Assembly (NCBI RefSeq): GCF_026151205.1
Contig: NC_087073.1
Coordinates: 1-64,000, forward strand
Source: Bolinopsis microptera
Lineage: Eukaryota > Ctenophora > Tentaculata > Lobata > Bolinopsidae
Reading direction: 5' to 3'
Length of the DNA stretch: 64,000 nucleotides
Shown here piece by piece: positions 38,990 through 62,512 of the stretch (positions within the stretch are counted from its first letter, which is position 1; each line of letters starts with the position of its first letter). The notes beneath the pieces are model-generated. The model saw only the letters and a list, made by a program, of their open reading frames with translations, searched no databases and was not told the origin of the DNA. A program made the position numbers and the translations under genes.

Positions 38990-40150
38990 TCAGCTGTTTG
39001 GTGTCGTCCACTGAGTCATGATTATGAAGTCGGTATTCGAGCTCAAGGATTCAACTATCGTACTAAGACCAATACCCATGTTCAAGGAAGTTGTCGCTGA
39101 CATCTCAACCAGGACTCCGAGTTTTCGAAGGTCTGGGAGGAAAGCAACGGAAAAGATAGAGCTAGGGTCCGTGGTAGATCCATCAGCGCCCATAAACTTG
39201 CCTTATCAATTTCTTTCTTCATCCTAAAATGGGTTATCTGATAGTAGGAGGACTTACCTAACGCAATGAAATAACTTCGTGGCTCAAACATTTCTCCTCC
39301 TTCAGAATAGGCTCACCTAAGTTACTAAAAGCAACAGAGTACACTACAGAATTAAAAGCAGAACTGTCATCAGAAGGATCCTGAAGAACAGGCGTTGGAG
39401 GGGAGATTTCAAATCACCAGTAGGTGGAGCATCAAAACGGGCTGATGTTGTAGATTTATCAACACCGTTTCGAGTCAGAATTCCCAAATCATCGACAACA
39501 CACTCTCTCCAGCATCTTTCTCAGCTATAGGGTCTGAATTTCTCATTAAGGCCTTGTTATGTACACTAGTAAGATAAGAAACAATAGATGTGTTGCTCAG
39601 GAGACATTCATTACAAAAACTCTTAGTAAGTGCAAGCACGTGGTTTTGCTGCTCAACTACAGAAGTGTTCAAATAAGAGCAAGATAGTACACTTAACCGA
39701 CCTTAGTATGTATCAGAAGAGTGTTGATTAGACTCATGAAAGATATCAAAAGTGAAAGTACAGAAGTCATTAAGCTAATGGGATGAACAGTGTCATGATT
39801 ATAATTGCCAATATCAAGCTCACTAGTTGTGAAGTACTGTGGTTAATAAAACTGATTTACGGCCATCCTTTAACATCTCAGATTTGGATCCTCAGGGTCA
39901 CCTAAGCGTCCTCTATGAGGTCTAAAGAAACCTGGATAGTGATGCTCCATATGATTGCCCAAGTAGTGGCTATATCAGAAAAGTTAAAACTAGGTTGAAC
40001 TTTGAAAGAAGTGACAAGATTGGCAATAGTCTGAGACTGATTCAGGCAACGTGAGGAATTTAAGGCATAACAAACACCATGACGACAAAATGCCCGTAAC
40101 CCACCTCTGACTTACCAGAAATCTTAGTGAAATTCTTACGGATAACCGAG
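38990..40150 (-). pseudogene. Probable transposase core of the large transposon, fragmented
   Basis: Between the peptidase and the cysteine clusters, - strand fragments show a coding look: GADGSTTDPSSIFSVAFLP and LRKLGVLVEMSATTSLNMGI (38990-39193), then NTSVVEQQNHVLALTKSF and CNECLLSNTSIVSYLTSVHN (39475-39672). The VVEQ.N..L.LTKS pattern resembles the C-terminal part of KDZ-type transposases as I recall it. Catalytic acidic residues could not be assigned by eye. Confidence 0.4.
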
Positions 40151-40685
40151 TATAACTGGGGTATTACCCTCACAAATTCTTAAGCCTAGCTGCCATATGA
40201 CCCTTTCCCACCAGTGTTCTATTTTTAAAATGAATTCCAAAAAACCCTTTTAAGTTTTAAATAAGATTTTTTGGGGAAATTTACTAATGCTCAATACGCT
40301 CAAGAGGTGGGAAAATTTCCTCGGGTCAAATCCTCAAAATAAGGGACCTGGTGTAGGGATCAAACAAAACAAAAAATTCGGGAGCAACTTTAGGGGAAGG
40401 GCCCTGCCTAACTTAACTGAAAAGTGCTCAAGATTCTTTTTTGAAAAGTTAGATTTATTACAAAAAACCCCCGGGCCAAAATTTAAACCCTAGAACAATT
40501 ATCTTTCCAACCCAATGGGGAAAACTCCCTACTCATGATTGGAAAATTCTCACCGGGGCTTTACGTAAAAAACAGACACTACGGAAAAAATCATAATTTC
40601 AATTTACACAGGGAAGAAACCCAAAAACGATAAAAATTTAAAAATGCTCATCTAGTTTTCAAGTCCTTAAGAGCCATATATGCTT

Positions 40686-42390
40686 TCACAGCACATTAAG
40701 TACTAAATGGATGTTATAGGCCTGGTCAGTAATAACTTTCATGATATCAAAAAAAGAGGAAAGGGAAGTGTTCTTGGTCACAAGCAGCAAGGGTAGCCTC
40801 CATAAGGGTAATTGAGAAAAATGAGTTATTATTATAATTAAAATATCCATCAGAATGCTCGGAATACTATATTTCAAAGAACAACTAGGACAAGACTTAG
40901 TGATTACTTTAATACCTGTCTTCTTTTCATACAAAGTAAATAAACAGCCACGATTACTTATGTTAGAAGTTATAAGATCTATGTCACATTTATTACACTT
41001 AGTCTCTAGTGGAGAGAATTCAGACTTAGGCGTCATCTGCTTAAACTCACGAACGTCAAATGGTATCTCTTGTTACGAGAATATAATCCATCATCTGCTC
41101 AGCGAGTTCAAGTTCCTTCTCATCCACTTCGTCTTCGGGACGTGGACTCACCCAAGCAAGGGATCAGTCTCCGAGACGAGGACAGCAATCTTCCTATGTA
41201 TGCAGGATTTAATTCACACGCACACTTAGTAGTCTTCGATACTCTGTCATAAGTTACTAGTACACGACTTAACTTGCTATAGTATTTCGGTTTCTCATCA
41301 CCAGCAAACACACTATAATAAATAGCTCGAGGAGTTCTCGAATCATTCACCATAATGGGCACATATTGCTTGATGACAGGAAGACCAAAATCTGTAGCAG
41401 TTTTACAGAACGCTTTAATACGATCCTCATCCTCCTTAAAACTGTCATATGACGTAACGTTATTCATTAAATCAGGAAGTAAAGGCAAGTTACGATTGAT
41501 ACAAGAGGACACGTGTTTACAAATGAAGCTAGGATTAAGACTGCACAATGGAAATCATGCATATCTTTACAAAGGTCATCAGAGCATTCCCAGCCGTTCT
41601 TAGTGTGGACAACATGCACAGGACAAGCAAGACCTTGAGTACTTTTCCTCACGAGATAAGTTCCGGTTTTCACACAGATTAGCTCAGCTTGGAGAAGTCT
41701 CGAGAAGTTTGATTTGTGCCAGAACTGTAGAAATTGCATCTCCCGAATAACCTGAAGAGGGTGTGCACTTTCTTACTTGTACAAGTCTTCAAGTGCTCCT
41801 CCATTCTAGGTAAATGTGCATGGGGACTTATTACAAAATTTACAATGAAAATGTTTACGTTGAGTCGGAGAACCTGAAGAAGTCAATCTTACAACACAAG
41901 CGTCTAACATTAGCCAACACTCTCTTAAATCAGGACTAATAGGATTTACAGGGTTAGAACAGACATTGGTCGATTCAGAACTCTTGGAGCCAACAGTTAC
42001 TGTTTCAACTGGATCACACGTACAGTTTGCCGGGGCAGAGCCGACTTCCTCAGAACGTGGTTCAACAGTTTGATCATGCACGGGGGTTGGCATTACAAAA
42101 TTGAGACCCTTGAGTTAAAACCCTAGGAAATTGATGATAAAGATATGTTCCACAAAATAGGCAGTGAAAATGAACCTTCCTATCAATTTTGTACTTGAAA
42201 TGATCCTTTTCTCGACATAACATCTTGGTTTTGTACTCATCTAAAATAGCCTTAACATCAGGGTCTGTAGATTTAAGCTGGGAAAGATAATATGCAACAT
42301 GTTCAACTGTACCAAATCTGGGAGGTGTGGTGTGATTAGGGTCAACCGGCTGGATCCTGCTAACTCCATCGTCAGTACGTGACTGAGGTG
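40686..42390 (-). pseudogene. CxC cysteine-cluster region of the transposon
   Basis: Reading N to C: FGTVEHVAYYLSQLKSTDPD and KVHFHCLFCGTYLYH (about 42150-42360), KHFHCKFCNKSPC and NCTCDPVETV (41806-42093), VKTGTYLVRKSTQGLACPVH with GWECSDDLC (41467-41739), TTKCACELNPAYIGRLL (41120-41548), and ETKCNKCDIDLI with SCPSCSLKYSIP (40686-41036). Repeated C..C pairs suggest several zinc-binding modules of the kind that precede KDZ transposase cores. The pieces lie in different frames and need frameshift or splicing corrections. Confidence 0.55.
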
Positions 42391-42409
42391 AACAAGATGG
42401 GGCTGATGA

Positions 42410-44130
42410 TTTGGGTGGATCAGATGATTTGGGTTGAGCTGATGATTTGGTTGAGCTGACGATTTGGGTTGAGCTGATGATTTGGGTTGAGCTGATGATT
42501 TGGTTGAGCTGATGATTTGGGTTGAGCTGATGATTTGGGTGGATCAGATGGTTTGGGTTGAGTTGATGATTTGGGTTGAGCTGATGATTTGGGTTGAGCT
42601 GATGATTTGGGTTGAGCTGATGGTTTGGGTTGAGCTGATGGTTTGGTTGGATCAGATGGTTTGGGTGGATCAGATGATTTGGGTTGAGCTGATGGTTTGG
42701 GTGGATCAGATGATTTGGGTTGAGCTGATGGTTTGGGTTGAGCTGATGGTTTGGGTGGATCAGATGATTTGGGTTGAGCTGATGGTTTGGGTGGATCAGA
42801 TGATTTGGGTTGAGCTGATGATTTGGGTGGATCAGATGGTTTGGGTTGAGTTGATGATTTGGTTGGATCAGATGGTTTAGGTGGATCAGATGATTTGGGT
42901 TGAGCCGATGATTTGGGTGGATCAGATGGTTTGGGTTGAGTTGATGATTTGGTTGGATCAGATGGTTTGGGTTGGATCAGATGATTTGGGTTGAGCTGAT
43001 GATTTGGGTCGAGGTGATGATTTTGGTTGAGCTGATGATTTTGGTTGAGCTGATGATTTGGGTGAGCTAATGATTTGGGTTGAACTGATGATTTGGGTTG
43101 AGCTGATGATTTGGGTTGAGCTGATGATTTTGGTTGAGCTGATGATTTGGGTTGAGTTGATGATTTGGGTTGAACTGATGATTTGGGTTGAGCTAATGAT
43201 TTGGGTTGAGGTGATGATTTTGGTTGAGCTGATGATTTGGGTTGAGCTAATGATTTGGGTTGAACTGATGATTTGGGTTGAGCTGATGATTTTGGTTGAA
43301 GCCTGATGATTTGGGTTGAGTTGATGATTTGGTTGAGTTGATGATTTGGGTTGAGGTGATGATTTGGGTTGAGCTGATGATTTGGGTTGAGCTAATGATT
43401 TGGGTTGAACTGATGATTTGGGTTGAGCTGATGATTTGGGTTGAGCTAATGATTTGGGTTGAACTGATGATTTGGGTTGAGCTGATGATTTGGGTTGAGC
43501 TAATGATTTGGGTTGAACTGATGATTTGGGTGAGCTGATGATTTGGGTTGAGCTGATGATTTTGGTTGAGCTGATGATTTGGGTTGAGCTGATGATTTGG
43601 GTTGAGTTGATGATTTGGGTTGAGCTGATGATTTTGGTTGAGCTGATGATTTGGGTTGAGCTAATGATTTGGGTTGAACTGATGATTTGGGTTGAGCTGA
43701 TGATTTGGGTTGAGCTAATGATTTGGGTCGAGCTGATGATTTGGGTTGAACTGATGATTTGGGTCGAGCTGAAGATTTTGGGTTGAGCTGATGATTTGGG
43801 TTGAGGTGATGATTTGGGTGAGCTGATGATTTGGGTTGAGCTAATGATTTGGTTGAACTGATGATTTGGGTTGAGCTGATGATTTGGGTTGAGCTAATGA
43901 TTTGGGTTGAGCTGATGATTTTGGTTGAGCTGATGATTTGGGTTGAACTGATGATTTGGGTTGAACTGATGATTTGGGTTGAGCTGATGATTTTGGTTGA
44001 GCCTGATGATTTGGGTCGAGCTGATGATTTGGTTGAACTGATGATTTGGGTCGAGCTGAAGATTTGGGTTGAGCTGATGATTTGGGTTGAGCTGATGATT
44101 TGGGTGGATCAGATGATTTAGGTGGTACAG
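42410..44130. repeat. 18-bp minisatellite inside the transposon's coding strand
   Basis: About 95 units of GATGATTTGGGTTGAGCT and variants (GGATCA, GAACT, TTTTGG). On the coding (-) strand a unit reads AQPKSS, so it may have begun as a coding linker upstream of the cysteine clusters. Seventeen-base units (GATTTGGTTGAGC) break the frame many times. Confidence 0.95.
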
Positions 44131-44418
44131 ATGAGTTGGGTGGACATATGATTTGGATGAGGGACGAGAGGAAGACAGTTCCTTAATACAATCTAGACGA
44201 TGTTTGAAATAGATGGATCAATCTTTACATATCAGAAAACTTGGGCAAATCTATATCTGAACGTTTCAACTTCTACTCTGTAACTTAGGTGCTTGCTCGA
44301 AATCCTCGTCTGAGTCGACAGAGGGTTTGACTGAACGTTTACGTGACAGATTATCTAACTTGGCACCTAGTTCCTTCCTATTCTGGATTACCAGTTCGGC
44401 AGAACAAATCATAACAGA

Positions 44419-44910
44419 TTACGACTTGTCTGGCCGGACTTCCTCAACAGAATGAAACAACTGGTCAGAGTATCTAACTAAAATCTTAGAACTTATGGAG
44501 GTGTGGAAACTTGCAACTATTCCATCTAATACTGTCTGGCTCTCCAAGAGATTAAACTTAAGAGACCTATCAGTTATTATGCAGCTATATAAATTTAAGA
44601 GAGCCTCTACAGAGCCATCCTTATCTAGTGAGCAGTGGTCAGAACATTCATATACATCTAAAGTGTGCTTACAGGGGAAAAAGTGCTTAAAGAACTGTTG
44701 CAATTTATCAGATAAAGGAAACATGAACTGAACTAAGGAACTACAAAACAATCTAACGTGGGGTATCTTAGGACCTGACTTAAGATCAGAAATGAACACA
44801 TAAGAACCACACTCTAACCGCAGTACTACAGAGGAGCACACGGTCAGGGGGGTCAGAATAAGCATGTGATAAAGGAGGCAAAGCATCCTGGATATTATGA
44901 TAATATACAC
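44419..44910 (-). CDS. Unrecognised ORF in the 5' part of the transposon
   Basis: A 163-residue ORF with segments such as VFISDLKSGPKIPHV, HTLDVYECSDHCSLDKDG and HTSISSKILVRYSDQLFHSV. Composition is protein-like. It precedes the AQPKSS repeats on the coding strand and may be the N-terminal part of the same element protein. I do not recognise it. Confidence 0.35.
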   Translation of the reverse strand: MYIIIISRMLCLLYHMLILTPLTVCSSVVLRLECGSYVFISDLKSGPKIPHVRLFCSSLVQFMFPLSDKLQQFFKHFFPCKHTLDVYECSDHCSLDKDGSVEALLNLYSCIITDRSLKFNLLESQTVLDGIVASFHTSISSKILVRYSDQLFHSVEEVRPDKS

Positions 44911-45529
44911 CTAAAGATGAATCGAACTTGTGGAGTCACGAATGAGCTCAACCACGGCATTTACCTGAGATGTATCCATAGGGAGTAGTCGTGTTGACTG
45001 AGTTAGCTGTAAAAAACAGCCAATAAGTAAAACTCAGATAGGGAAAAGTGTAGTCAAAGAACTGGTTGTAGGAAACAACACAGTCCAGAGTAGGAAGGGA
45101 GGACTCACAACTAGTTGTAGAAAACAACGTAGTTTAGAGTAAAGTAGGCAAAGAAGACAGGCAGTAGGCACGTAGCGTAAACTACAAAATAAAAATGTGT
45201 ATTTGAAAGATAGAGCTTAAAGTCGAAATGTCAAAAGATTGTACTCAGTGTGTGAAATAGTAAACTGAAACCGGGTGAGCTATATTTCGCGCGAGGGTAT
45301 TTATACCCGCTTCATCGTGACAGGGATAACGAGCCGATTGTTTACAAACAAGCAGCAAGCATGTGAATCCTTCTTGATAAGGTTCAGATCACGTTTGATC
45401 GCGTGCAGGGTTCTTGTCTCCGATAGATCAGATCATTGTCTTCTAAGAAGATCATATCCTCGTTCTTGCCCCCTCCAGTGGGATCTCATCATTCTCGATA
45501 AGCATCAGATCAAATGATTGCCTCAAAAA

Positions 45530-48500
45530 ACCGTATCATCTGGTTCACAATCTCGGATACTCAGGAACCAGCTTTTTGATACGGAAATGGAACCAAGTCT
45601 CTAGTGGGCCGTTCTGGGAGTGCTAGGGCCACCAAACTTTGCAGGAACACTATTAGGGTCAATACCAAACGATTCCGATCTGTTTTGGGGCAATCCGACG
45701 AGTTTTAGAAAAAAAATTCATTTTTGTTCATTCCGTTCATTCCATGACTGAGGGAGCCTCTGGTGACAATTTTGACGTCAAAATAGTTAGTTAAACACAT
45801 CCCTCTACACCGTACAAACCATTTCCAGCACTCTGAAACTACTTTAACAGACTGAAATGACCGTATCAAAATGCCTCAAAAACCGTATCTCATGAACCAG
45901 CTTTTTGATACGGAAATGGAATCAAGTCTCTAGTGGGCGTTCTGGGAGTGCTAGGGCCACCAAACTTTGCAGGAACACTATTAGGGTCAATACCAAACGA
46001 TTCCGATCTGTTTTGGGGCAATCCGACGAGTTTTAGAAAAAAATTCATTTTTGTTCATTCCGTTCATTCCATGGACTCAGGGAGCCTCTGGTGACAATTT
46101 TGACGTCAAAATAGTTAGTTAACACATCCCCCTACACCGTACAACCATTTCCAGCACTCTGAAACTATTTTAACAGACTGAAATGACCGTATCAAAATGC
46201 CTCAAAAACCGTATCATTTGGTTCCACAATCTCGGATACTCATGACCAGCTTTTTGATACGGAAATGGAACCAAGTCTCTATGGGCGTTCTGGGAGTGCT
46301 AGGGCCACCAAACTTGCAGGAACACTATTAGGGTCAATACCGAACGATTCCGATCTGTTTTGGGCAATCGACGAGTTTAGAAAAAAAAATTCATTTTTGT
46401 TCATTCCGTTCATTCCATGACTGAGGGAGCCTCTGGTGACAATTTTGACGTCAAAATAGTTAGTTAACACATCCCCCTACACCGTACAACCATTTCCAGC
46501 ACTCTGAAACTACCTTTAACAGACTGAAATGACCGTATCAAAATGCCTCAAAAACCGTATCATTTGGGTTCCACAATCTCGGATACTCATGAACCAGCTT
46601 TTTGATACGGAAATGGAACCAAGTCTCTAGTGGGCGTTTCTGGGAGTGCTAGGGCCACCAAACTTTGCAGGAACACTATTAGGGTCAATACCAAACGATT
46701 CCGATCTGTTTTGGGGCAATCCGACGAGTTTTAGAAAAAAAATTAATTTTTGTTCATTCCGTTCATTCCATGACTCAGGGAGCCTCTGGTGACAATTTTG
46801 ACGTCAAAATAGTTAGTTAACACATCCCCCTACACCGTACAACCATTTCCAGCACTCTGAAACTACTTTAACAGACTGAAATGACCGTATCAAAATGCCT
46901 CAAAAACCGTATCATTTGGTTCCACAATCTCGGATACTCATGAACCAGCTTTTTGATACGGAAATGGAACCAAGTCTCTAGTGGGCGTTCTGGGAGTGCT
47001 AGGGCCACCAAACTTTGCAGGAACACTATTAGGGTCAATACCGAACGATTCCGATCTGTTTTGGGGCAATCCGACGAGTTTTAGAAAAAAATTCATTTTT
47101 GTTCATTCCGTTCATTCCATGACTCAGGGAGCCTCTGGTGACAATTTTGACGTCAAAATAGTTAGTTAACACATCCCCCTACACCGTACAACCATTTCCA
47201 GCACTCTGAAACTACTTTAACAGACTGAAATGACCGTATCAAAATGCCTCAAAAACCGTATCATTTGGTTCCACAATCTCGGATACTCATGAACCAGCTT
47301 TTTGATACGGAAATGGAACCAAGTCTCTAGTGGGCGTTCTGGGAGTGCTAGGGCCACCAAACTTTGCAGGAACACTATTAGGGTCAATACCAAACGATTC
47401 CGATCTGTTTTGGGGCAATCCGACGAGTTTTAGAAAAAAATTCATTTTTGTTCATTCCGTTCATTCCATGACTCAGGGAGCCTCTGGTGACAATTTTGAC
47501 GTCAAAATAGTTAGTTAACACATCCCCCTACACCGTACAACCATTTCCAGCACTCTGAAACTACTTTAACAGACTGAAATGACCGTATCAAAATGCCTCA
47601 AAAACCGTATCATTTGGTTCCACAATCTCGGATACTCATGAACCAGCTTTTTGATACGGAAATGGAACCAAGTCTCTAGTGGGCGTTCTGGGAGTGCTAG
47701 GGCCACCAAACTTTGCAGGAACACTATTAGGGTCAATACCGAACGATTCCGATCTGTTTTGGGGCAATCCGACGAGTTTTAGAAAAAAATTCATTTTTGT
47801 TCATTCCGTTCATTCCATGACTCAGGGAGCCTCTGGTGACAATTTTGACGTCAAAATAGTTAGTTAACACATCCCCCTACACCGTACAACCATTTCCAGC
47901 ACTCTGAAACTACTTTAACAGACTGAAATGACCGTATCAAAATGCCTCAAAAACCGTATCATTTGGTTCCACAATCTCGGATACTCATGAACCAGCTTTT
48001 TGATACGGAAATGGAACCAAGTCTCTAGTGGGCGTTCTGGGAGTGCTAGGGCCACCAAACTTTGCAGGAACACTATTAGGGTCAATACCAAACGATTCCG
48101 ATCTGTTTTGGGGCAATCCGACGAGTTTTAGAAAAAAATTCATTTTTGTTCATTCCGTTCATTCCATGACTCAGGGAGCCTCTGGTGACAATTTTGACGT
48201 CAAAATAGTTAGTTAACACATCCCCCTACACCGTACAACCATTTCCAGCACTCTGAAACTACTTTAACAGACTGAAATGACCGTATCAAAATGCCTCAAA
48301 AACCGTATCATTTGGTTCCACAATCTCGGATACTCATGAACCAGCTTTTTGATACGGAAATGGAACCAAGTCTCTAGTGGGCGTTCTGGGAGTGCTAGGG
48401 CCACCAAACTTTGCAGGAACACTATTAGGGTCAATACCGAACGATTCCGATCTGTTTTGGGGCAATCCGACGAGTTTTAGAAAAAAATTCATTTTTGTTC

Positions 48501-49061
48501 ATTCCGTTCATTCCATGACTCAGGGAGCCTCTGGTGACAATTTTGACGTCAAAATAGTTAGTTAACACATCCCCCTACACCGTACAACCATTTCCAGCAC
48601 TCTGAAACTACTTTAACAGACTGAAATGACCGTATCAAAATGCCTCAAAAACCGTATCATTTGGTTCCACAATCTCGGATACTCATGAACCAGCTTTTTG
48701 ATACGGAAATGGAACCAAGTCTCTAGTGGGCGTTCTGGGAGTGCTAGGGCCACCAAACTTTGCAGGAACACTATTAGGGTCAATACCAAACGATTCCGAT
48801 CTGTTTTGGGGCAATCCGACGAGTTTTAGAAAAAAATTCATTTTTGTTCATTCCGTTCATTCCATGACTCAGGGAGCCTCTGGTGACAATTTTGACGTCA
48901 AAATAGTTAGTTAACACATCCCCCTACACCGTACAACCATAATTATCTATTTTTGCTCCAAAATATAGTCAAAATAACGTTGGTTCCAAACCGTATCAAA
49001 ACCGTATCAAAACCGTATCATTGGTTCCAAATTGGTTCCAAAATCTCGGATTCATGAACTC
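45530..49061. repeat. Right inverted end of the transposon: ten 349-bp tandem units
   Basis: Ten copies of a 349-bp unit, the last six nearly identical. From about 45.99 kb on, units alternate between CAATACCAAACG and CAATACCGAACG, giving a 698-bp higher-order period. Each holds TTTTGACGTCAAAA and ends near CCAGCTTTTTGATACGG. The outermost 120 bp contain three close-set CCGTATCA motifs before the terminal inverted repeat. The repeated 62-residue ORFs are by-products. Confidence 0.95.
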
Positions 49062-49319
49062 TAGCGCTCGGGAAACTTGTTCATTACACTTTTTGTAATA
49101 TCTTTACCGCCCAAATGGAACTGAACGGACTAAGAAAACGCATCAAATATATATTATATAAATATATTGGATACCATCACTTAAACATCTCCTCACAAAC
49201 AAGTTGATAGGTGCAATACCTTTCAATACAAGATAACAAATTAAAAAGGGCAACTACAGTTAACCGTATTACAAACCGGCTATTTACAATGACATTCCAA
49301 CATTATTTAACAAAATGCT

Positions 49320-49529
49320 TCAGTAAAACTCAGTACATAATGATAATAGTTTGTTGTATTTTCCATATCTTCTCAGTTTTAAGGAAACAGGGCCACTAAT
49401 CCTTGTTCCCAAAGGCTCGTGTTTGTCGTTGATAAAAACACAGTTGTTTGTGTCAAAACGAGGACAATCTCTTCTGTCACGCACTAATCCTGTTATCACT
49501 GCTTTATACATCTGGCCTTTATATGTTAC
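49320..49529 (-). CDS. MRPL14: MRPL14 (uL14m), exon 2
   Basis: Mitochondrial large-subunit ribosomal protein uL14. From the acceptor TGTGTTCAG|GTA the exon reads VTYKGQMYKAVITGL, then CPRFDTNNCVFINDKHEP, LGTRISGPVSLKLR and ends LCTEFY. It matches the C-terminal half of human MRPL14 ([34 protein letters not shown]-type), with PRFD.NN and P.GTRI conserved. It is phase 0 and joins exon 1 (56118) after GNVVK, giving about 137 residues, close to the 145 of the human protein. The intron between the exons is 6.6 kb, nearly all satellite. Confidence 0.87.
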   Translation of the reverse strand, partial: VTYKGQMYKAVITGLVRDRRDCPRFDTNNCVFINDKHEPLGTRISGPVSLKLRRYGKYNKLLSLCTEFY

Positions 49530-49800
49530 CTGAACACAAGTTATTATTTCACAGTGCACATTGTAAAGAATAGTTAAGGATTTAAAGGATCTAGCACCTA
49601 AACATATAGGTCTACTGAATGGGGGCTAATTAGGCTTAAATGGGCTATACATATCAATGTCTTCAATTCCAAGACTGAAATATAAGAAATAAATATCCGA
49701 GCCTCCGGGCCCCGACTTCCAAAAAGTGTGAAGAACACAAATACACTTCTAAGAAGTAAACTTGGGAGAACCAGCAGGAGTCTGAAACACTGGGTATACA

Positions 49801-49825
49801 GGGGGGGGGGGGGGGGGGGGGGGGG
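49801..49825. repeat. Poly-G tract in the MRPL14 intron
   Basis: A run of about 25 G on the + strand (C on the transcribed sense strand), about 90 bp before the 39-bp array starts. Exact length is probably uncertain. Confidence 0.9.
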
Positions 49826-49917
49826 CTCAATATACAATCAACAAATCAAGGCCTGATTGTGATTGTGGTTATTTACACAAATCATCGTTGCTTACAGTAT
49901 AAAAATACTCTTCACTC

Positions 49918-52900
49918 TTACCTTCACTACATTTCCAACATGAGGGGTATTGTCTCTTACCTTGACTACATTTCCAACATGAGGGGTGGTGTCTCTTACC
50001 TTGATTACATTTCCAACATGAGGGGTATTGTCTCTTACCTTGACTACATTTCCAACATGAGGGGTGGTGTCTCTTACCTTGACTACATTTCCAACATGAG
50101 GGGTATTGTCTCTTACCTTCACTACATTTCCAACATGAGGGGTGGTGTCTCTTACCTTGACTACATTTCCAACATGAGGGGTGGTGTCTCTTACCTTGAC
50201 TACATTTCCAACATGAGGGGTGGTGTCTCTTACCTTGACTACATTTCCAACATGAGGGGTGGTGTCTCTTACCTTGACTACATTTCCAACATGAGGGGTG
50301 GTGTCTCTTACCTTGACTACATTTCCAACATGAGGGGTGGTGTCTCTTACCTTGACTACATTTCCAACATGAGGGGTGGTGTCTCTTACCTTGACTACAT
50401 TTCCAACATGAGGGGTGGTGTCTCTTACCTTGACTACATTTCCAACATGAGGGGTGGTGTCTCTTACCTTGACTACATTTCCAACATGAGGGGTGGTGTC
50501 TTACCTTGACTACATTTCCAACATGAGGGGTGGTGTCTCTTACCTTGACTACATTTCTAACATGAGGGGTAGTGTCTTACCTTGACTACATTTCCAACAT
50601 GAGGGGTGGTGTCTCTTACCTTCACTACATTTCTAACATGAGGGGTAGTGTCTTACCTTGACTACATTTCCAACATGAGGGGTGGTGTCTCTTACCTTGA
50701 CTACATTTCCAACATGAGGGGTGGTGTCTCTTACCTTGACTACATTTCTAACATGAGGGGTAGTGTCTTACCTTGACTACATTTCCAACATGAGGGGTGG
50801 TGTCTCTTACCTTCACTACATTTCTAACATGAGGGGTAGTGTCTTACCTTGACTACATTTCCAACATGAGGGGTGGTGTCTCTTACCTTGACTACATTTC
50901 CAACATGAGGGGTGGTGTCTCTTACCTTCACTACATTTCTAACATGAGGGGTAGTGTCTTACCTTGACTACATTTCCAACATGAGGGGTGGTGTCTCTTA
51001 CCTTCACTACATTTCCAACATGAGGGGTATTGTCTCTTACCTTGACTACATTTCCAACATGAGGGGTGGTGTCTCTTACCTTGATTACATTTCCAACATG
51101 AGGGGTATTGTCTCTTACCTTGACTACATTTCCAACATGAGGGGTGGTGTCTCTTACCTTGACTACATTTCCAACATGAGGGGTATTGTCTCTTACCTTC
51201 ACTACATTTCCAACATGAGGGGTGGTGTCTCTTACCTTGACTACATTTCCAACATGAGGGGTGGTGTCTCTTACCTTGACTACATTTCCAACATGAGGGG
51301 TGGTGTCTCTTACCTTGACTACATTTCCAACATGAGGGGTGGTGTCTCTTACCTTGACTACATTTCCAACATGAGGGGTGGTGTCTCTTACCTTGACTAC
51401 ATTTCCAACATGAGGGGTGGTGTCTCTTACCTTGACTACATTTCCAACATGAGGGGTGGTGTCTCTTACCTTCACTACATTTCTAACATGAGGGGTAGTG
51501 TCTTACCTTGACTACATTTCCAACATGAGGGGTGGTGTCTCTTACCTTGACTACATTTCTAACATGAGGGGTAGTGTCTTACCTTGACTACATTTCCAAC
51601 ATGAGGGGTGGTGTCTCTTACCTTGACTACATTTCCAACATGAGGGGTGGTGTCTCTTACCTTGACTACATTTCCAACATGAGGGGTGGTGTCTCTTACC
51701 TTGACTACATTTCCAACATGAGGGGTGGTGTCTCTTACCTTGACTACATTTCCAACATGAGGGGTGGTGTCTCTTACCTTCACTACATTTCTAACATGAG
51801 GGGTAGTGTCTTACCTTGACTACATTTCCAACATGAGGGGTGGTGTCTCTTACCTTGACTACATTTCTAACATGAGGGGTAGTGTCTTACCTTGACTACA
51901 TTTCCAACATGAGGGGTGGTGTCTCTTACCTTCACTACATTTCTAACATGAGGGGTAGTGTCTTACCTTGACTACATTTCCAACATGAGGGGTGGTGTCT
52001 CTTACCTTGACTACATTTCCAACATGAGGGGTGGTGTCTCTTACCTTGACTACATTTCCAACATGAGGGGTGGTGTCTCTTACCTTGACTACATTTCCAA
52101 CATGAGGGGTGGTGTCTCTTACCTTGACTACATTTCCAACATGAGGGGTGGTGTCTCTTACCTTGACTACATTTCCAACATGAGGGGTGGTGTCTCTTAC
52201 CTTGACTACATTTCCAACATGAGGGGTGGTGTCTCTTACCTTGACTACATTTCCAACATGAGGGGTGGTGTCTCTTACCTTGACTACATTTCCAACATGA
52301 GGGGTGGTGTCTCTTACCTTGACTACATTTCCAACATGAGGGGTGGTGTCTCTTACCTTGACTACATTTCCAACATGAGGGGTAGTGTCTCTTACCTTGA
52401 CTACATTTCCAACATGAGGGGTGGTGTCTCTTACCTTGACTACATTTCTAACATGAGGGGTGGTGTCTCTTACCTTGACTACATTTCCAACATGAGGGGT
52501 AGTGTCTCTTACCTTGACTACATTTCCAACATGAGGGGTGGTGTCTCTTACCTTGACTACATTTCCAACATGAGGGGTGGTGTCTCTTACCTTGACTACA
52601 TTTCCAACATGAGGGGTGGTGTCTCTTACCTTGACTACATTTCCAACATGAGGGGTGGTGTCTCTTACCTTGACTACATTTCCAACATGAGGGGTGGTGT
52701 CTTACCTTGACTACATTTCCAACATGAGGGGTGGTGTCTCTTACCTTGACTACATTTCTAACATGAGGGGTAGTGTCTTACCTTGACTACATTTCCAACA
52801 TGAGGGGTGGTGTCTCTTACCTTCACTACATTTCTAACATGAGGGGTAGTGTCTTACCTTGACTACATTTCCAACATGAGGGGTGGTGTCTCTTACCTTG

Positions 52901-55900
52901 ACTACATTTCCAACATGAGGGGTGGTGTCTCTTACCTTGACTACATTTCTAACATGAGGGGTAGTGTCTTACCTTGACTACATTTCCAACATGAGGGGTG
53001 GTGTCTCTTACCTTCACTACATTTCTAACATGAGGGGTAGTGTCTTACCTTGACTACATTTCCAACATGAGGGGTGGTGTCTCTTACCTTGACTACATTT
53101 CCAACATGAGGGGTGGTGTCTCTTACCTTCACTACATTTCTAACATGAGGGGTAGTGTCTTACCTTGACTACATTTCCAACATGAGGGGTGGTGTCTCTT
53201 ACCTTCACTACATTTCCAACATGAGGGGTATTGTCTCTTACCTTGACTACATTTCCAACATGAGGGGTGGTGTCTCTTACCTTGATTACATTTCCAACAT
53301 GAGGGGTATTGTCTCTTACCTTGACTACATTTCCAACATGAGGGGTGGTGTCTCTTACCTTGACTACATTTCCAACATGAGGGGTATTGTCTCTTACCTT
53401 CACTACATTTCCAACATGAGGGGTGGTGTCTCTTACCTTGACTACATTTCCAACATGAGGGGTGGTGTCTCTTACCTTGACTACATTTCCAACATGAGGG
53501 GTGGTGTCTCTTACCTTGACTACATTTCCAACATGAGGGGTGGTGTCTCTTACCTTGACTACATTTCCAACATGAGGGGTGGTGTCTCTTACCTTGACTA
53601 CATTTCCAACATGAGGGGTGGTGTCTCTTACCTTGACTACATTTCCAACATGAGGGGTGGTGTCTCTTACCTTCACTACATTTCTAACATGAGGGGTAGT
53701 GTCTTACCTTGACTACATTTCCAACATGAGGGGTGGTGTCTCTTACCTTGACTACATTTCTAACATGAGGGGTAGTGTCTTACCTTGACTACATTTCCAA
53801 CATGAGGGGTGGTGTCTCTTACCTTGACTACATTTCCAACATGAGGGGTGGTGTCTCTTACCTTGACTACATTTCCAACATGAGGGGTGGTGTCTCTTAC
53901 CTTGACTACATTTCCAACATGAGGGGTGGTGTCTCTTACCTTGACTACATTTCCAACATGAGGGGTGGTGTCTCTTACCTTCACTACATTTCTAACATGA
54001 GGGGTAGTGTCTTACCTTGACTACATTTCCAACATGAGGGGTGGTGTCTCTTACCTTGACTACATTTCTAACATGAGGGGTAGTGTCTTACCTTGACTAC
54101 ATTTCCAACATGAGGGGTGGTGTCTCTTACCTTCACTACATTTCTAACATGAGGGGTAGTGTCTTACCTTGACTACATTTCCAACATGAGGGGTGGTGTC
54201 TCTTACCTTGACTACATTTCCAACATGAGGGGTGGTGTCTCTTACCTTGACTACATTTCCAACATGAGGGGTGGTGTCTCTTACCTTGACTACATTTCCA
54301 ACATGAGGGGTGGTGTCTCTTACCTTGACTACATTTCCAACATGAGGGGTGGTGTCTCTTACCTTGACTACATTTCCAACATGAGGGGTGGTGTCTCTTA
54401 CCTTGACTACATTTCCAACATGAGGGGTGGTGTCTCTTACCTTGACTACATTTCCAACATGAGGGGTGGTGTCTCTTACCTTGACTACATTTCCAACATG
54501 AGGGGTGGTGTCTCTTACCTTGACTACATTTCCAACATGAGGGGTGGTGTCTCTTACCTTGACTACATTTCCAACATGAGGGGTAGTGTCTCTTACCTTG
54601 ACTACATTTCCAACATGAGGGGTGGTGTCTCTTACCTTGACTACATTTCTAACATGAGGGGTGGTGTCTCTTACCTTGACTACATTTCCAACATGAGGGG
54701 TAGTGTCTCTTACCTTGACTACATTTCCAACATGAGGGGTGGTGTCTCTTACCTTGACTATTTTTCCAACATGAGGGGTAGTGTCTCTTACCTTGACTAC
54801 ATTTCCAACATGAGGGGTGGTGTCTCTTACCTTGACTACATTTCCAACATGAGGGGTGGTGTCTCTTACCTTGACTACATTTCCAACATGAGGGGTAGTG
54901 TCTCTTACCTTGACTACATTTCCAACATGAGGGGTAGTGTCTCTTACCTTGACTACATTTCCAACATGAAGGGTGGTGTCTCTTACCTTGACTACATTTC
55001 CAACATGAGGGGTGGTGTCTCTTACCTTCACTACATTTCCAACATGAGGGGTATTGTCTCTTACCTTGACTACATTTCCAACATGAGGGGTGGTGTCTCT
55101 TACCTTGATTACATTTCCAACATGAGGGGTATTGTCTCTTACCTTGACTACATTTCCAACATGAGGGGTGGTGTCTCTTACCTTGACTACATTTCCAACA
55201 TGAGGGGTGGTGTCTCTTACCTTGACTACATTTCCAACATGAGGGGTGGTGTCTCTTACCTTGACTACATTTCCAACATGAGGGGTAGTGTCTCTTACCT
55301 TGACTACATTTCCAACATGAGGGGTGGTGTCTCTTACCTTGACTACATTTCTAACATGAGGGGTGGTGTCTCTTACCTTGACTACATTTCCAACATGAGG
55401 GGTAGTGTCTCTTACCTTGACTACATTTCCAACATGAGGGGTGGTGTCTCTTACCTTGACTATTTTTCCAACATGAGGGGTAGTGTCTCTTACCTTGACT
55501 ACATTTCCAACATGAGGGGTGGTGTCTCTTACCTTGACTACATTTCCAACATGAGGGGTGGTGTCTCTTACCTTGACTACATTTCCAACATGAGGGGTAG
55601 TGTCTCTTACCTTGACTACATTTCCAACATGAGGGGTAGTGTCTCTTACCTTGACTACATTTCCAACATGAAGGGTGGTGTCTCTTACCTTGACTACATT
55701 TCCAACATGAGGGGTGGTGTCTCTTACCTTCACTACATTTCCATCATGAGGGGTGGTGTCTCTTACCTTGACTACATTTCCAACATGAGGGGTAGTGTCT
55801 CTTACCTTGACTACATTTCCAACATGAGGGGTGGTGTCTCTTACCTTGACTAAATTTCCAACATGAAGGGTGTTGTCTCTTACCTTGACTACATTTCCAA

Positions 55901-56117
55901 CATGAGGGGTGTTGTCTCTTACCTTGACTACATTTCCAACATGAGGGGTGGTGTATCTTACCTTGACTACATTTCCAACATGAGGGGTGGTGTCTCTTAC
56001 CTTGACTACATTTCCAACATGAGGGGTGGTGTCTCTTACCTTGACTACATTTTCAACATGAGGGGTAGTGTCTCTTACCTTGACTACATTTCCAACATGA
56101 GGGGTGGTGTCTCTTAC
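49918..56117. repeat. 39-bp array of about 159 copies of the MRPL14 exon 1 end and donor
   Basis: Each - strand unit ends GTAGTCAAG|GTAAGAGACA: the last bases of MRPL14 exon 1 followed by a consensus 5' splice site. Exon 1's final 39 nt differ from the unit at only about three positions, near their start. In the exon frame a unit reads VRDTTPHVGNVVK. Some units, all left of about 54.15 kb, are 37 bp (GGTAAGACAC) and break the frame. Near-identical blocks recur with a 2,201-bp offset (50.94-51.78 kb against 53.14-53.98 kb). Confidence 0.95.
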
Positions 56118-56321
56118 CTTGACTACATTTCCAACATGAGGGGTAGTGTCTTTACCGTAATAACCGATTATTTTAACCCAGCCATCGTCATCTCGATCCT
56201 GAGGTCCCGTAAAGTTACATAGCTTGTTGAGGCGTGCTTGTTTCAGCATTCCTCGTGTGCATACCAAAGGTGCAAACGTTTGACAGATATTTCCAGTGAG
56301 TAACCTTGCTTGCAATGCCAT
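56118..56321 (-). CDS. MRPL14: MRPL14 (uL14m), exon 1
   Basis: Sixty-eight codons from MALQARLLTGNICQTF to HVGNVVK. The N-terminus is rich in R, L, Q and T without acidic residues, as in mitochondrial targeting peptides. DGWVKIIGYYG followed by GNVVK aligns with the CIHVYKKNGVGKVGDQIL region of MRPL14, where GDQILLAIKGQ pairs without gaps with GNVVK|VTYKGQ across the splice. That places the genuine donor at 56117, the first of the long series of identical donors. An earlier GT at about 56155 (ACG|GTAAAG) would drop the last 13 residues. A poly-T run lies just upstream at 56340-56364. Confidence 0.8.
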
Positions 56322-56339
56322 CGCCTATGAATATGTTTG

Positions 56340-56364
56340 GTTTTTTTTTTTTTTTTTTTTTTTT
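56340..56364. repeat. Poly-T tract upstream of MRPL14
   Basis: About 24 T on the + strand (A on the gene's sense strand), 19 bp upstream of the MRPL14 start codon. It could be the tail of a small retroposed element, but no body was recognised. Confidence 0.9.
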
Positions 56365-57600
56365 GGGGACCGGTTTTTTATACCCGGCCAATGTTTACAA
56401 AATAATATAATACATAACAATATAATTTTATTTAATATGCGTGAATATGAAAATTGAAAATGTTGATTACGTCTATTCATTAAAAACAAAAACAGAAACT
56501 TTAAAAATTAAAACTTGTATATCATGATTTATTAACATATAGTGACAAATAATTTGATTTGATACGACAGATTATCACACGCACTGTTTTATAAGCCACT
56601 TGAGGTTAATACAAAAAAGAATAACTGAGCCCATGTCTTATCAGCACCTGCTAGCGCTATCTATATGATGCTATTAATATGACAGTGAATGGGCAGTGAA
56701 AAAAGTGGCATATGGTTGATAGTGACTAGTGTGCTAACCGTCTGGTTTTATTTATTCCTTAGTTTATTCTCGGTAGTTGATTTGTTGTGTGCCTGATCTT
56801 GTCGATTTACGTAGCCCGGGTAAATTATGTAACAGAAAAGGTGGCCATTCTTCATCGTTTCCTGAGCTTTGTAGTTCTATCATTACACGCTTCGCTGATT
56901 TCTTATATATGCTTATTGAGAAAATGCTAGATGGGCAAGTTATGCGACTAATGTTGTGCTCGGTAATAGCTAATATAGGACCTTTATACAGAACACTAGC
57001 GCGTAGATCTGGTTGAGAGAACGTTGTTAGCCAGTCGATATTGTCGTCATAAGACGTGCCATACTTTGGTATATCGGGAGGAAATAGGTCTTTTATCGAC
57101 GACGGCAGAAGGCCAACCAAATGGTTACATTTTGAAAAAAAAATATATAATATGGGGCAGGTTTTGAGCGTTACTAGATTCGATTTTCGTTTTATGAATA
57201 AAATTCAGTGTAAGTATAATCATACACTTAAAGACAGGATTACAATTTAGTAATAAAGGAATTCATATTACGAAAAGTTGTAGCCACTTAAGAATTATAA
57301 GTGAAGATCATAATCAAAACAACAGCAAATGAATTTATAATAAATGAGTTAATTGACTAATAGATATGGTATGAAAGTTAATCTGGAAACATCATTGAAT
57401 GATAGATTGCTCTGACTAATTGTTCGTTAGATAAGAAGTCTGACGTTACTCATTTACATAATAGATCATAATATCTGCAATGGTAAAAAGTGCTGCATGC
57501 AAAGTCTTGATAAGTTAGATTTTCTAAAATAACATAATTTGTAATATGGAAGAGAGATTGGCAAATGGAAGGAATCCCAACAGTTTTCAACAGTTCACAT
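56365..57600. other. Stretch with no recognised gene
   Basis: Intergenic DNA between MRPL14 and the membrane-protein cluster. A 118-residue - strand ORF (56764-57120) overlaps others on the + strand; none shows a known motif. Confidence 0.45.
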
Positions 57601-57607
57601 CTTTGAT

Positions 57608-57950
57608 CTAGTTTTGCAAACTGAAGTACAGCATTGTACCTAAATAATATAGTACATAAAAAGGGATTGTAAGACTCTTGTCACAGACTGTAAGACTCTT
57701 ATCACAAATCCTCTTAATAACATTTAGTGAAGGCGATAAGAGAGATGTTTCTTGTGTATCCAGATTCTTGTGTATATACAAGCCAGTACTTATTAAAATA
57801 AGTGGCAATAACACAGAAAATGTAAAGATAGGAATGCCATAAACCATCAAATAACAAATCGGTAACCAGAATGTGTTAAAGGTGGAAGCTGATTTCCACA
57901 TACCGAGATTCACCGATAAGTATTTATACCTGCGGTCTCTATATATAGAT
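57608..57950 (-). CDS. C-terminal exon of an LRAT-like membrane protein (paralogue)
   Basis: The exon reads MWKSASTFNTFWLPICYLMV, a hydrophobic stretch ending IFTFSVLLPLILIS, then KSLTIPFYVLYYLGTMLYFS before a stop. It aligns with MWRSGSTFYSCWLPLCYAIL and IGSVIYFSYQG of the neighbour at 60.3 kb, so it is the same protein family: three or so membrane segments. The likely acceptor is ACCGCAG at about 57937. It may be the last exon for the protein at 59.0-59.96 kb, spliced after GGQYAKM, though that donor (GTCACT) is poor. Confidence 0.5.
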
Positions 57951-58960
57951 ATACCGAGAGAAAGAAAAAGGAGGAGGAGAAAAAAGAGGAAGAAGTAAGA
58001 AAAATAAGAAAATTAATTTGATAAATCTAACGAGAACTTTCAGTTCTGTATGAGAGATTATCGTCAAAAATGAAAAATTGAAAAACGAAAAACTGTGTTT
58101 ACAATACTTTTTGGTTACTTAGCAACCGTAGAGATTCAGACATTTTATGTTGCACTTGGCAACAGCTCGCTTGTGTTGTTGTAAGTCACTAGTCAGTGTG
58201 TCTGTCAGTGTATCTGCATAGTGCAGTGTGTGTACAATGTATTTCAGTGCCGAGTACATGGCACCGGAATCGCGTGTGGCAAATTACGTGTACTAATTAC
58301 TTTTTAATGTAAGTCGCCTTATCATCGGCGTTATCTCTCTAACAAGATTAGACATTAAATTCACTACTCTTGCATCAAGTTACAAGGCCGAGCATAAAGT
58401 TTGTAGTAAGTATTATTTTGTTGGAAATTGATTTTGTTTCTTATGTTCAGTGCATTTCTAAAGACTTAAATAAATATTTGATCACATACGATTTATACTT
58501 TGATCTCTAGTTTGAAACTTTACTATTCTGTTAAATGGAGTTATCGTTCATTTCCAGGACTGAGACTCTTCATGCAATTTCACAAAGTCATAACGTAGTG
58601 GTAAAGGGCCACGTCTAAGTCCAAGGCAGACTAATACAACATGGACCCAGGTATCAGACGTGACTTTCTGTCCGCTGTAGTTAAAGTGTAGGCCGTCACG
58701 TGCTAGATGACCCCATCCGAACGATAGGTTATCAAACAGATGTATGTGCGACCGCTTAGCTCAGTCTGGGTCTCCATTTCAGTCAAATTGCAAATCGAAA
58801 TGTAGTGACTTACTTTAGTAGGGAGGTTTTTGTGGCTTTTAGGAAAAGGACCGCTCTGTGTCGGTACCACTGAGCCCGTGAGTTCGTCTGTTCGTCTGTT
58901 CGTCAGTAGTTACAAGCTGTATGCTGTAGCCAGTGCGTCGTAAAAACGGCTTATCTCATC
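57951..58960. other. Intron or intergenic stretch without recognised feature
   Basis: No conserved ORF. Two short stretches near 58590 (GTAGTGGTAA) and 58750 (GCTTAGCTCAG) recall tRNA A-boxes, but no matching B-box or cloverleaf follows. Confidence 0.4.
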
Positions 58961-58962
58961 AA

Positions 58963-59959
58963 TTAGCGAGAGAGATAAAAGACAAACATATACGAGATGT
59001 AAAAAGTGATAATGAAAAAAAGTGACATCTTTGCATATTGTCCTCCTCTTTTTCTGAAAGTACCCAGAGGTGTGCAAAGTATGCATTCTATTAAAAGAAA
59101 GCTAAGCAATTTCAGAGCAAACACCCCCAAAAACGTTTCTCTATCATTAACGATCAAGACGAAAATTATGACTAGTACTGCGTATACAACATACTGATAG
59201 TGATAAAAAGTTTCATATAATGCACCATCACTGTATAGAAAAAATAGCTCACACAAAACAGAGACGGTCCACACAAATAAGAATAAAGGATATCCACCGT
59301 CGCTAAACAGTTTGAGAGGGCTTGTCAAATCAGTTGGAGAAGTAAAGTCCCATGTTTTATCAATTGCAAACTTATCAAAGACTTCTTTTGAAAAATGTTG
59401 GCAGTTTCTGTCCACAAGATCGTATTTATTCGAATCCAGTTTGCTTTTTAAGCGGCGGACCATGTCAATAAGTGAAGAAGTTGATGCATCTTGAACCAGT
59501 AGGTGGATAGGTTTTGGACGAAGATGATCCTGGAAGTAAAATACAGCAGATTCGAGATTTTTACTCCAACTCACAAATATCCCATCTTTCATCTTATCAA
59601 CAGCCCAAAACATTCCATCTGTTTCAAACACAACAAATGTATGGTAGTCCACAGGTAGATATTGTCGCTGCATAAAACTGCGAACATATGGTGCGGAACT
59701 TTTAAACGGAGCAGTTAATGGTGAGCTGAAGACACTGATATTTTTGATGGCTGCCAGTTCATAATTATATAGTGTATTAAATCTGAACACTTGCTCGATA
59801 TTTTCAACAGTGACTTGTTCAGTAGAGGTATAGTTGGCAGTTGCATCAGTTAAAAGCAGTGTTCCAGCTCTTTTAAGCTTTACTTCACAGTTGTATACCA
59901 ACCACATACCCCAGATTACCAGATTCAGGAATATAACAGAAACTTCAATATAATGTGAC
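58963..59959 (-). CDS. LRAT/NlpC-P60-like domain with membrane segments
   Basis: The exon starts after TTTCAG at 59960 and reads SHYIEVSVIFLNLVIWGMWL, a membrane segment, before the ATG-based ORF of 314 residues. Counting from that Met, a domain of about residues 40-185 has VDYHTFVVFETDGMFWAVDK (His 89) and VDRNCQHFSKEVF (Cys 169, His 171): the circularly permuted papain-like pattern of LRAT and H-REV107 proteins, with His before an NC motif. Two further hydrophobic segments follow (205-225, 236-255), then RKRGG. LRAT-type proteins act as acyltransferases or phospholipases, but the activity here is unknown. The stop at 58963 may be intron read-through. Confidence 0.6.
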
Positions 59960-60268
59960 CTGAAATATCATTTAAATGTTTAGAAAACGTTTAATCGTTT
60001 TGTGAGCTTTACATTTTATTTCTTAATATTTAATTCTTAATATCTGAATCTGAATATTCACAACTCATCATGTAACTTTTTAGATTATCGAATTTCTGGA
60101 TGATTAATTTGCATCTTATCTTAAATGACTTAAATCTGAGAAGAATGTTTTATCAGCAAAGTTTATAATTATTTGCTATATAATAGAGTTTATTTCATGC
60201 CACTATGCGCTGCCACCCATGATGCATAAATTAACGGAAACAAAGTTTGATTCTAAATGTAGGACTTA
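59960..60268. other. Short intergenic or intronic stretch
   Basis: Contains the upstream intron of the 59.0-59.96 kb gene and the intron after the donor at 60269. Part (60171-60268) is duplicated at 62513 onward. No gene of its own. Confidence 0.5.
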
Positions 60269-60269
60269 C

Positions 60270-61675
60270 GTATTTTCCGGTAATCTTCCTCCACTGTTGC
60301 CTTGATAGCTAAAGTAGATCACAGACCCAATATGACACAATAAGGTAATATAGGTCAATCCAAGGATAGCAAAGAAATTAGTAAATCCTCTTAAGATGTT
60401 GTGTAACAGAGAAAAGGCTGGTGAAATACTGGTAGTGAGGTAGTTCAAATTTAGCCCTTCAAGTATCTCTTGAGTAAATTTTATAGGTAGGAACACAATA
60501 ACCACACAAGTAAGGTTTCCATAAAGTATTGCATAACATAGTGGTAACCAACAACTATAGAAAGTAGACCCTGATCTCCACATCTTGCCATAATGTCCTC
60601 CTCGCTTTCTAATAGCACCAAAGGGGGTATAGAATATAGCCTCTGCAAACAAACCGATTATCAATGGTAACAAAAGAGAGTTTGTTTCCTTATCAGTATT
60701 AAGGGGGCCGGGGGGGGGTCTTCATCAAAATTCTCTCGAAATTGACTTTGTAGTTGTTTCTGATGGAGGGGAGTGATATCTATCAGCTGTTTTTGGTCCC
60801 ATGGAAAAATATTGTTCCTAGCCGAAAATATTGCCGGTCAAAGGTCAGCGCTTATGTGTAATTGTATTGCGCGAGCGATTTTCAATCGCGCGCCCTGAAA
60901 ATCGAGTCTAAAAATCTATCTTCTCCTACATTTTTTGAGCAATCACCCTGAAACTTTCAGGATATGTTTTAAGGACCATTTAGAAGAGATTGTCGGGCCA
61001 GAATTTTGAGATAGGCCTTAGAAATTTTTTTATTCGATTTTGAAAATCTTGGACCTGAAAAAATCGTCAAAATACGAGGTCCAAGATTTTCAAAATCGAA
61101 TAAAAAATTTCTAAGGCCTATCTCAAAATTCTGGCCCGACAATCTCTTCTAAATGGTCCTTAGAACATATCCTGAAAGTTTCAGGGTGATTGCTCAAAAA
61201 ATGTAGGAGAAGATAGATTTTTAGACTCGATTTTCAGGGCGCGCGATTGAAAATCGCTCGCGCAATACAATTACACATAAGCGCTGACCTTTGACCGGCA
61301 ATATTTTCGGCTAGGAAAAATATTTTTCCATGGGACCAAAAACAGCTGATAGATATCACTCCCCTCCATCAGAAACAACTACAAAGTCAATTTCGAGAGA
61401 ATTTTGATGAAGACCCCCCCCCGGCCCCCTTAAAACGCAGCATTACCAATGAGAGCGGTATCACGATGTAAACCACATACTGATAGTGATAGAGTGCTTC
61501 ATTTCCTGTGCTCTGGCTCCATAAAAGAGTTAACTCGTAGATAACTGAGATAGGTACTAATGATCTAACAATAAAAGCCGATCTGGGAACTGGTCCTTCA
61601 TAGTACCACAAACAGCAAAATGAGACCCAAACAAGTAAACACAAGGAGATTAGACCAACCTCCAGCCAATTCGAT
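60270..61675 (-). pseudogene. Membrane-protein paralogue disrupted by a fold-back element
   Basis: The exon begins after TTTCAG at 61676 with SNWLEVGLISLCLLVWVSFC, aligning with SHYIEV of the left neighbour at the same phase. It continues to YHYQYVVYIVIPLSLVMLRF at 61434, is interrupted by a 727-bp palindromic element, then resumes NTDKETNSLLLPLIIGLF and AIRKRGGHYGKM to a good donor (TAC|GTAAGT) at 60269. Removing the element plus one TTAA restores an uninterrupted frame aligning with the neighbour (YHYQYVVYAVLV, then CTPLGTFRKRGGQYAKM). The LRAT-like domain of the neighbour is absent from this exon. Confidence 0.7.
60703..61429. mobile_element. 727-bp fold-back element at a TTAA site
   Basis: A near-perfect palindrome: the left arm (GGGGGCCGGGGGGGG, then TCTTCATCAAAATTCTC) mirrors the right arm, with a 20-bp loop at 61057-61076. 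TTAA flanks both sides (60699-60702 and 61430-61433). No ORF. TTAA duplication is the hallmark of piggyBac-type transposition, although the G-rich ends are not the usual piggyBac termini. Arms differ at only a handful of positions, so it is recent or kept alike by gene conversion. Confidence 0.9.
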
Positions 61676-62087
61676 CTGAAATGCAGGTATTTTTAATGTA
61701 GGTATAGATTCTCCCTGCCCCCCGGCCCGACCCCCCGGCCGCGGCCTCTCCCGCTTTTCAAGGATCATAGAATCTATTCCATCCACAATCTGTATTCATA
61801 CAACTGCTTGATGGAAACATTCAAAGTCCTCAGACTTATGCGACCTTTACTGACTTTATGTACAGTATCTAATCAGCTATCCTCACAAATAAATAAAAAA
61901 GTGTACAAAAATCTCAACTTACGTATATTCTGGTATCGGACAGTACAGTCCCTCAGTACTATAGACAGGAAAGTCAGGAAAGTCACATGTCTCCATACTT
62001 AAATTAGTGAACAATTTTAAATTAATAAATAATACTGTTTTCAGCAAGACATAGTATACAACAGCATGTTATTATGTTTGTATAGGA
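61676..62087. other. Upstream part of the disrupted gene
   Basis: Likely upstream intron of the paralogue. It contains a C-rich stretch (61715-61750). No further exon could be supported. Confidence 0.4.
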
Positions 62088-62190
62088 GGATACAAGGATA
62101 CAAGGATACAAGGATACAAGGATACAAGAATACAAGGATACAAGGATACAAGGATACAAGGATACAAGGATACAAGGATACAAGGATACA
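62088..62190. repeat. (GGATACAA)n microsatellite
   Basis: About 13 units of GGATACAA with one GAATACAA variant. Confidence 0.95.
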
Positions 62191-62512
62191 AAAGTGATAA
62201 TTACTTTATTGAGTACACAATAGTTGTAATTCTGAAATAATTTAAGTTACACAATTCTAATTATTTACAAGTGTGTAGGGATAATTTAGAAATGTTATAT
62301 AATGCTAGTTTTAGAAAAATTGATAAATCGAGTTTGTATGGTTCAATTTTATTTTAAGGTCCTATAGCGTTATGCACTTGCCAGTATTTGAGTGGAAATC
62401 TGGGCTCTTATAATAGGCTGTATAATGTTCGTTCACAGAGAGAATTGAATGGATTGCTCTTGCTGTGGCAGTGAGTATGGTAGGATCTAGAGTTTTGTTG
62501 GAGAGCAAAATA

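Follow-up and report, generated by a model that had tools for sequence, protein, structure and literature searches.

How can a gene keep its protein intact when its intron is filled with copies of its own exon end, each carrying a 5' splice site? The question is raised by MRPL14, the gene for the mitochondrial ribosomal protein uL14m, in the ctenophore Bolinopsis microptera. The window considered here is the first 64,000 nucleotides of contig NC_087073.1 (C2 in the coordinates below), and the original prediction for it, made from the letters, described an MRPL14 intron consisting of about 159 copies of the end of exon 1 and its donor. We find that the array exists, that it has counterparts in at least three other genes of this genome, and that the edges of the exons concerned have probably been duplicated in tandem outward into the introns, an outcome tolerated since the exon-proximal donor would still be chosen. 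The parts of the gene are the following, with a slash marking a splice border in this and later sequences.

49320..49529, minus strand: MRPL14 exon 2 with the stop codon (69 codons plus stop)
49530..49920, minus strand: non-repetitive 3' part of the intron, about 390 bp, ending ...TTCAG
49921..56117, minus strand: array of 160 units with 161 GGTAAG donors, the unit being the last 34 nt of exon 1 plus GTAAG
56111..56120, minus strand: first donor, AAG/GTAAGAG, the one that gives a gapless uL14m
56118..56321, minus strand: coding part of MRPL14 exon 1 (204 nt, 68 codons), with the ATG at 56321 and the end ...GNVVK

When the first donor is joined to exon 2 of this two-exon gene, across an intron of 6588 nt, a uL14m of 137 residues results. 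Sequence comparison confirms that the two exons encode one protein, uL14m, as had been proposed pending a homology search. The protein carries the Ribosomal_L14 domain (Pfam PF00238, 4.4e-10, 40 bits against a cutoff of 23.6), and its closest relatives in the Protein Data Bank (PDB) are mitochondrial uL14 proteins, headed by human mitochondrial L14 (2.8e-13). The alignment with human MRPL14 passes through the junction GNVVK/VTYKG without gap or insertion. A protein search returned 11 relatives; P0002, whose source tag "merc" we take to denote a transcript-derived catalogue, reads GNVVK/VTYQG and has no unit at the junction. In an AlphaFold model of the relative P0001, a predicted strand (residues 69-74) spans the junction; with a mean pLDDT of 44.6 the model is of low confidence and lends weak support only. 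The gapless human alignment and P0002 place the genuine donor first in the series, as had been claimed, and the cell probably does face a choice of one site among near-identical competitors.

The array itself is documented both by the donor count and by Tandem Repeats Finder (TRF), which reports 161.2 copies at 49915-56156 with a score of 11350. The +1 G positions of the 161 GGTAAG donors run from 56117 down to 49921, and the earlier figure of about 159 copies gives way to 161 donors in 160 units. Nor is the unit the last 39 nt of exon 1, as first described; it consists of the last 34 nt of the exon and the first 5 nt of the intron (GTAAG). The repeat starts at the 3' end of the exon and there is a donor in each unit, the defining features of a splice-donor minisatellite; GGTAAG is kept in 161/161 donors, in line with the prediction that every unit is a donor, and the unit borders always read AAG/GTAAG or TAG/GTAAG. 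The description of the units as 13 codons long holds for the 138 of 160 that measure 39 bp, but 22 of the 160 measure 37 bp, and because of these the array as a whole is out of frame. The exon frame stays open for 725 codons into the array, to a stop at 54146 (about 54144 had been given), and the first 37-bp unit is unit 51, which leaves 50 downstream donors in frame, the number anticipated. A run of 58 units, 36-93, recurs as units 93-150 with the same unit types; large blocks must therefore have been duplicated recently.

The genome searched comprises 264,652,675 bases in 232 contigs, and a second intact MRPL14 lies on the same contig as the window, in inverted orientation, at C2:336397-339640. 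It belongs to a duplicated segment.

25602..62276, no strand assigned: segment of which pieces recur inverted at C2:332510-342078, the sister segment holding the second intact MRPL14 with 67 donors

We read this arrangement as a segmental duplication; it could also be a misplaced allele. The two genes encode an identical protein; between their coding exons there are 2 differences in 204 positions and 2 in 210. All 67 donors of the second array contain GGTAAG (67/67), and its exon frame closes after 158 codons, with six units open and a TAG in the seventh. The number of array copies thus varies between the genomic copies (161 against 67 donors), and further array starts are found in database open reading frames (ORFs), described below. 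A silent site at the exon end is ACT in the window and ACG in the second copy, and ACG units make up 5 of the 66 there against 0 of the 160 in the window. This one silent site suggests that exchange may occur between the exon end and the array. The duplicated segment also contains, upstream of MRPL14, an ORF with a PPPDE (Peptidase_C97) match (4.7e-08; 58966-59967, minus strand). A second minisatellite, with a 48-bp unit, occupies 26791-34194 of the window (154 copies by TRF, 140 of them with exact cores). The sister segment carries a single such unit, near C2:341.5 kb, against the 140 exact-core copies in the window, and arrays can therefore arise within very similar sequence; the two segments represent the states before and after the birth of this array.

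Among the relatives, P0004, P0005 and P0006 are ORFs on short contigs in which an identical exon 1 is followed by array-like peptide; the frame is lost after 1, 0 and 0 in-frame units. These contigs measure 635-744 bp and may be misassembled. In four others (P0003, P0010, P0011 and P0012) the intron start that follows the lysine is non-repetitive, and one of these four reads through for 21 residues (63 nt) at exactly the site of the MRPL14 junction. A query made of the exon plus units retrieved 7 proteins. None contains more than one in-frame unit, and none is spliced so as to include one.

Donor arrays are not confined to MRPL14. Across the genome, three AAGGTAAG donors separated by gaps of 8-38 nt match 1491 times and the same pattern reversed 6 times; for a consensus MAGGTAAGT pattern the counts are 896 and 0. 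With a slightly wider pattern the two MRPL14 arrays contribute 159 and 56 matches. We examined the seven arrays that head the matches listed, a small and order-biased sample that includes both MRPL14 copies. A coding exon ends at the start of five of the seven, representing four independent genes. The arrays outside MRPL14 are these.

C1:1104522-1104816: acceptor series upstream of the GNL2 exon, 8 tandem CAG/TGTTGTAAAGT at a spacing of 41-43 nt, each with a CT tract
C1:1104947-1111145: array at the GNL2 exon, about 164 donors, 38-bp units
near C1:4181605-4183453: array at an Img2/mL49-like exon, 42 donors matched, 44-bp unit, spacing 44 or 88
C3:9771036-9775172: array at an exon of an unnamed gene, about 112 donors, 37-bp units
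C2 about 21866000-21874800: donor array several kb long with a 34-bp unit, GTAAGT and GTAATT units intermixed, no recognisable coding exon at its start
C3:6554911: 3-copy donor array in inverted-repeat-like sequence, no exon

The GNL2 exon and the exon that follows it align without gap to human GNL2 across K/G (1.1e-23; 6lss chain 1, residues 2-77 to 336-411), and this GNL2/NOG2 fragment scores below the Pfam cutoff for MMR_HSR1 (17.4 against 21.9). Its donors were counted only after an exact 13-nt anchor, and 3.5 kb of the array lies outside the sequence read; 66 of the 72 donors so read are AAGGTAAG and 6 are mutated, array donors 2 and 4 among them. Use of donor 2 would lead to a TGA inside the first unit. 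Each of the tandem acceptors on the other side carries 19 nt of the exon start, and all seven alternative acceptors (7/7) meet a stop in the upstream phase. With donors on one side and acceptors on the other, both edges of a single exon have therefore been copied outward. The second gene is called Img2/mL49-like only, because its 90-residue fragment, which lacks the start of the domain, scores 32.4 bits against an Img2 cutoff of 34.4 (E 1.1e-07) and has no relative in the PDB; the Img2 alignment does span the exon junction. From donor 2 its reading frame continues as V-S-stop, and 19 of its 42 donors depart from AGGTAAGT. The product of the unnamed C3 gene matches nothing in Pfam and nothing credible in the PDB; its donor 2 shifts the frame, with a stop a few codons into the next exon (a GDS-stop frame), and later donors lead to a stop in unit 2. 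As far as these reading frames tell, extra units in the GNL2, mL49-like and C3 arrays would be nonsense, and extra protein blocks would not be the point.

In C2:1-264000 and C2:326000-355999, 68 minisatellites (period 15-120, at least 3 copies) cover 63,362 of 294,000 bp, a high share. GGTAAG is present in 2 of the 68, and both are the MRPL14 arrays, so that most arrays in this stretch do not sit at donors; the idea that minisatellites of this genome generally carry a donor motif is rejected for the 294 kb surveyed. The junction arrays could be accounted for by uniform seeding of a genome rich in minisatellites. Since some arrays in such a genome must hit junctions, their birth calls for no special mechanism.

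The history that we propose for MRPL14 would have begun with a tandem duplication that took in the 3' end of exon 1 together with the adjoining donor, seeded probably by short matching words, GGTAA-AGAC in the exon and GGTAAG-AGTG in the intron; an origin from the exon's own end with such microhomology had been suggested before and is supported. Slippage and multi-unit duplication would then have produced a 6.2-kb minisatellite wholly on the intron side. The 5'-most, exon-proximal donor would be used and the other copies would leave with the intron. Exon definition, together with cap proximity in a first exon, is an established principle of donor choice. Because donor 1 differs from its competitors only in what lies more than 34 nt upstream, namely the exon body and the cap end, we infer that the choice is made in this way, through enhancers in the exon body and the cap-binding complex; the first donor may be favoured also by being transcribed first. 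With the exon-side site left in place and chosen, the gene would be unharmed and the array free to change in length within the intron. A similar process would have acted at other exons of the genome and, in GNL2, once on the acceptor side too.

Several observations weigh against outward duplication with strict choice of the first donor. Two of the seven arrays examined, those at C2 about 21866000-21874800 and at C3:6554911, have no recognisable exon and count against a universal origin from exon edges. A pure bystander array should lose some donors, and not one has been lost from the 161 and 67 of the two MRPL14 copies; computed by columns, the probability of this by chance is 0.02-0.06. Predicted folding gives donor 1 an accessibility of 0.70; the donors of the first 3.4 kb average 0.52 (sd 0.17). 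Finally, strict use of the first donor is a prediction from protein conservation. Two candidate explanations were set aside. That later donors are hidden by secondary structure is unsupported, as folding does not clearly set donor 1 apart. Selection keeping all donors has weak support in the column-wise value and is contradicted by the GNL2 and mL49-like arrays.

Splicing may, alternatively, not be strict. Many downstream donors would be used, faulty products would be lost by nonsense-mediated decay, enough correct mRNA would be left, and the array would act as a length-dependent brake on expression. The competitors do match the first donor, and inclusion of units means nonsense in the GNL2, mL49-like and C3 arrays. 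In human DOK7, moreover, the intron-proximal of two donors is the favoured one, and it makes a difference where SRSF1 binds (PMC5585400), whereas the arrays here require the opposite, exon-proximal outcome. We consider this explanation unlikely, if worth serious attention, since heavy loss should be costly in conserved housekeeping genes; the absence of unit-bearing spliced proteins from the search also speaks against it, although decay products are not expected in a protein database. More improbable is a stepwise removal of the array by recursive splicing or re-splicing. All the unit borders are of the AAG/GTAAG or TAG/GTAAG form; a donor can be rebuilt at AAG/GTAAG, and AAG/GTAACA, the spliced junction, resembles one. 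The predicted pairing of that junction with U1 is weak, however (-6.5 against -9.5 kcal/mol), and, as far as reading of the unit sequence tells, no clear pyrimidine tract precedes the MRPL14 unit borders.

The full retention of GGTAAG in both MRPL14 arrays would also be expected if the many U1 sites were selected to guard a long intron against premature polyadenylation. The GNL2 and mL49-like arrays, however, contain decayed donors, and the long intron was created by the array itself; we regard such protection as very improbable. Still less credence goes to the proposal in the original prediction that in-frame units (VRDTTPHVGNVVK) are translated, giving MRPL14 forms longer by multiples of 13 residues. 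The 50 in-frame downstream donors of the window copy would permit it, but the second copy offers six in-frame units before its TAG and the database ORFs offer 1, 0 and 0, the junction falls inside the strand of the low-confidence model, the arrays of the other three genes cannot add protein, and none of the seven proteins retrieved carries two or more in-frame units or is spliced with one. Equally hard to credit is an assembly artefact affecting the array length or the second copy. Tandem arrays are difficult to assemble, and the second copy, inverted on the contig of the first, could represent an allele put in the wrong place. Against this, the copies differ in length and in unit variants, no runs of N occur in the stretches examined, and array starts are found on separate short contigs as well.

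Outward duplication of exon edges has partial parallels. Introns are said to be created by tandem duplication of segments containing AGGT, reportedly in work by Rogers in 1989, Venkatesh in 1999 and Zhuo in 2007; the likeness lies in a duplicated exon segment with AG/GT, the difference in that here no intron is new and an existing donor has been multiplied. Human IFI6 has a repeat of about 26 copies of units of about 12 bp and gives in-frame isoforms. One report (PMC4526556) cites work that places this repeat at the exon-intron boundary, with two downstream units serving as donors and three mRNAs as the result. By analogy the MRPL14 array would be of the same kind, a boundary repeat whose units supply donors. 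IFI6 is, however, one gene, whereas here four independent genes carry units of 37-44 bp and 42 to about 164 donors at coding exons, one exon is arrayed on both sides and extra units are mostly nonsense. Boundary repeats also alter splice structure in human segmental-duplication genes, where variable internal tandem repeats at exon-intron boundaries and 27 intron modifications are described (PMC2812944). The outcome in that case is new introns and alternative transcripts in recent paralogs; here the position of the intron is common to relatives and only the intron side grows. In our literature search we came across no report of donor series as large as these, nor of arrays on both sides of an exon.

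A broader proposal, for which the case falls slightly short of balanced, is that these arrays form, in this lineage, a genome-wide class of splice-junction minisatellites, of donors and acceptors, with up to about 160 copies in conserved genes, from which the spliceosome picks the exon-proximal member with high fidelity. If this were true, the identity of a splice site would come from the exon body rather than from the sequence of the site. Experiments on the choice between identical sites usually employ a small number of engineered copies. In this genome, natural arrays of 161, 67, about 164, about 112 and 42 donors adjoin coding exons, one exon has donors in series on one side and acceptors on the other, and the two MRPL14 copies offer a built-in comparison of length. 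The arrays would also provide a route by which introns grow by kilobases while the protein stays intact.

Elsewhere in the window, an ORF at 34947-35624 on the minus strand, which has no Pfam match at 0.01, presumably resembles the N-terminal part of CDC20. A reverse transcriptase ORF (RVT_1, 1.6e-17) occupies 14987-17281 on the plus strand, directly after a 9-bp repeat array at 14365-14996 that is open in the frame of this ORF.

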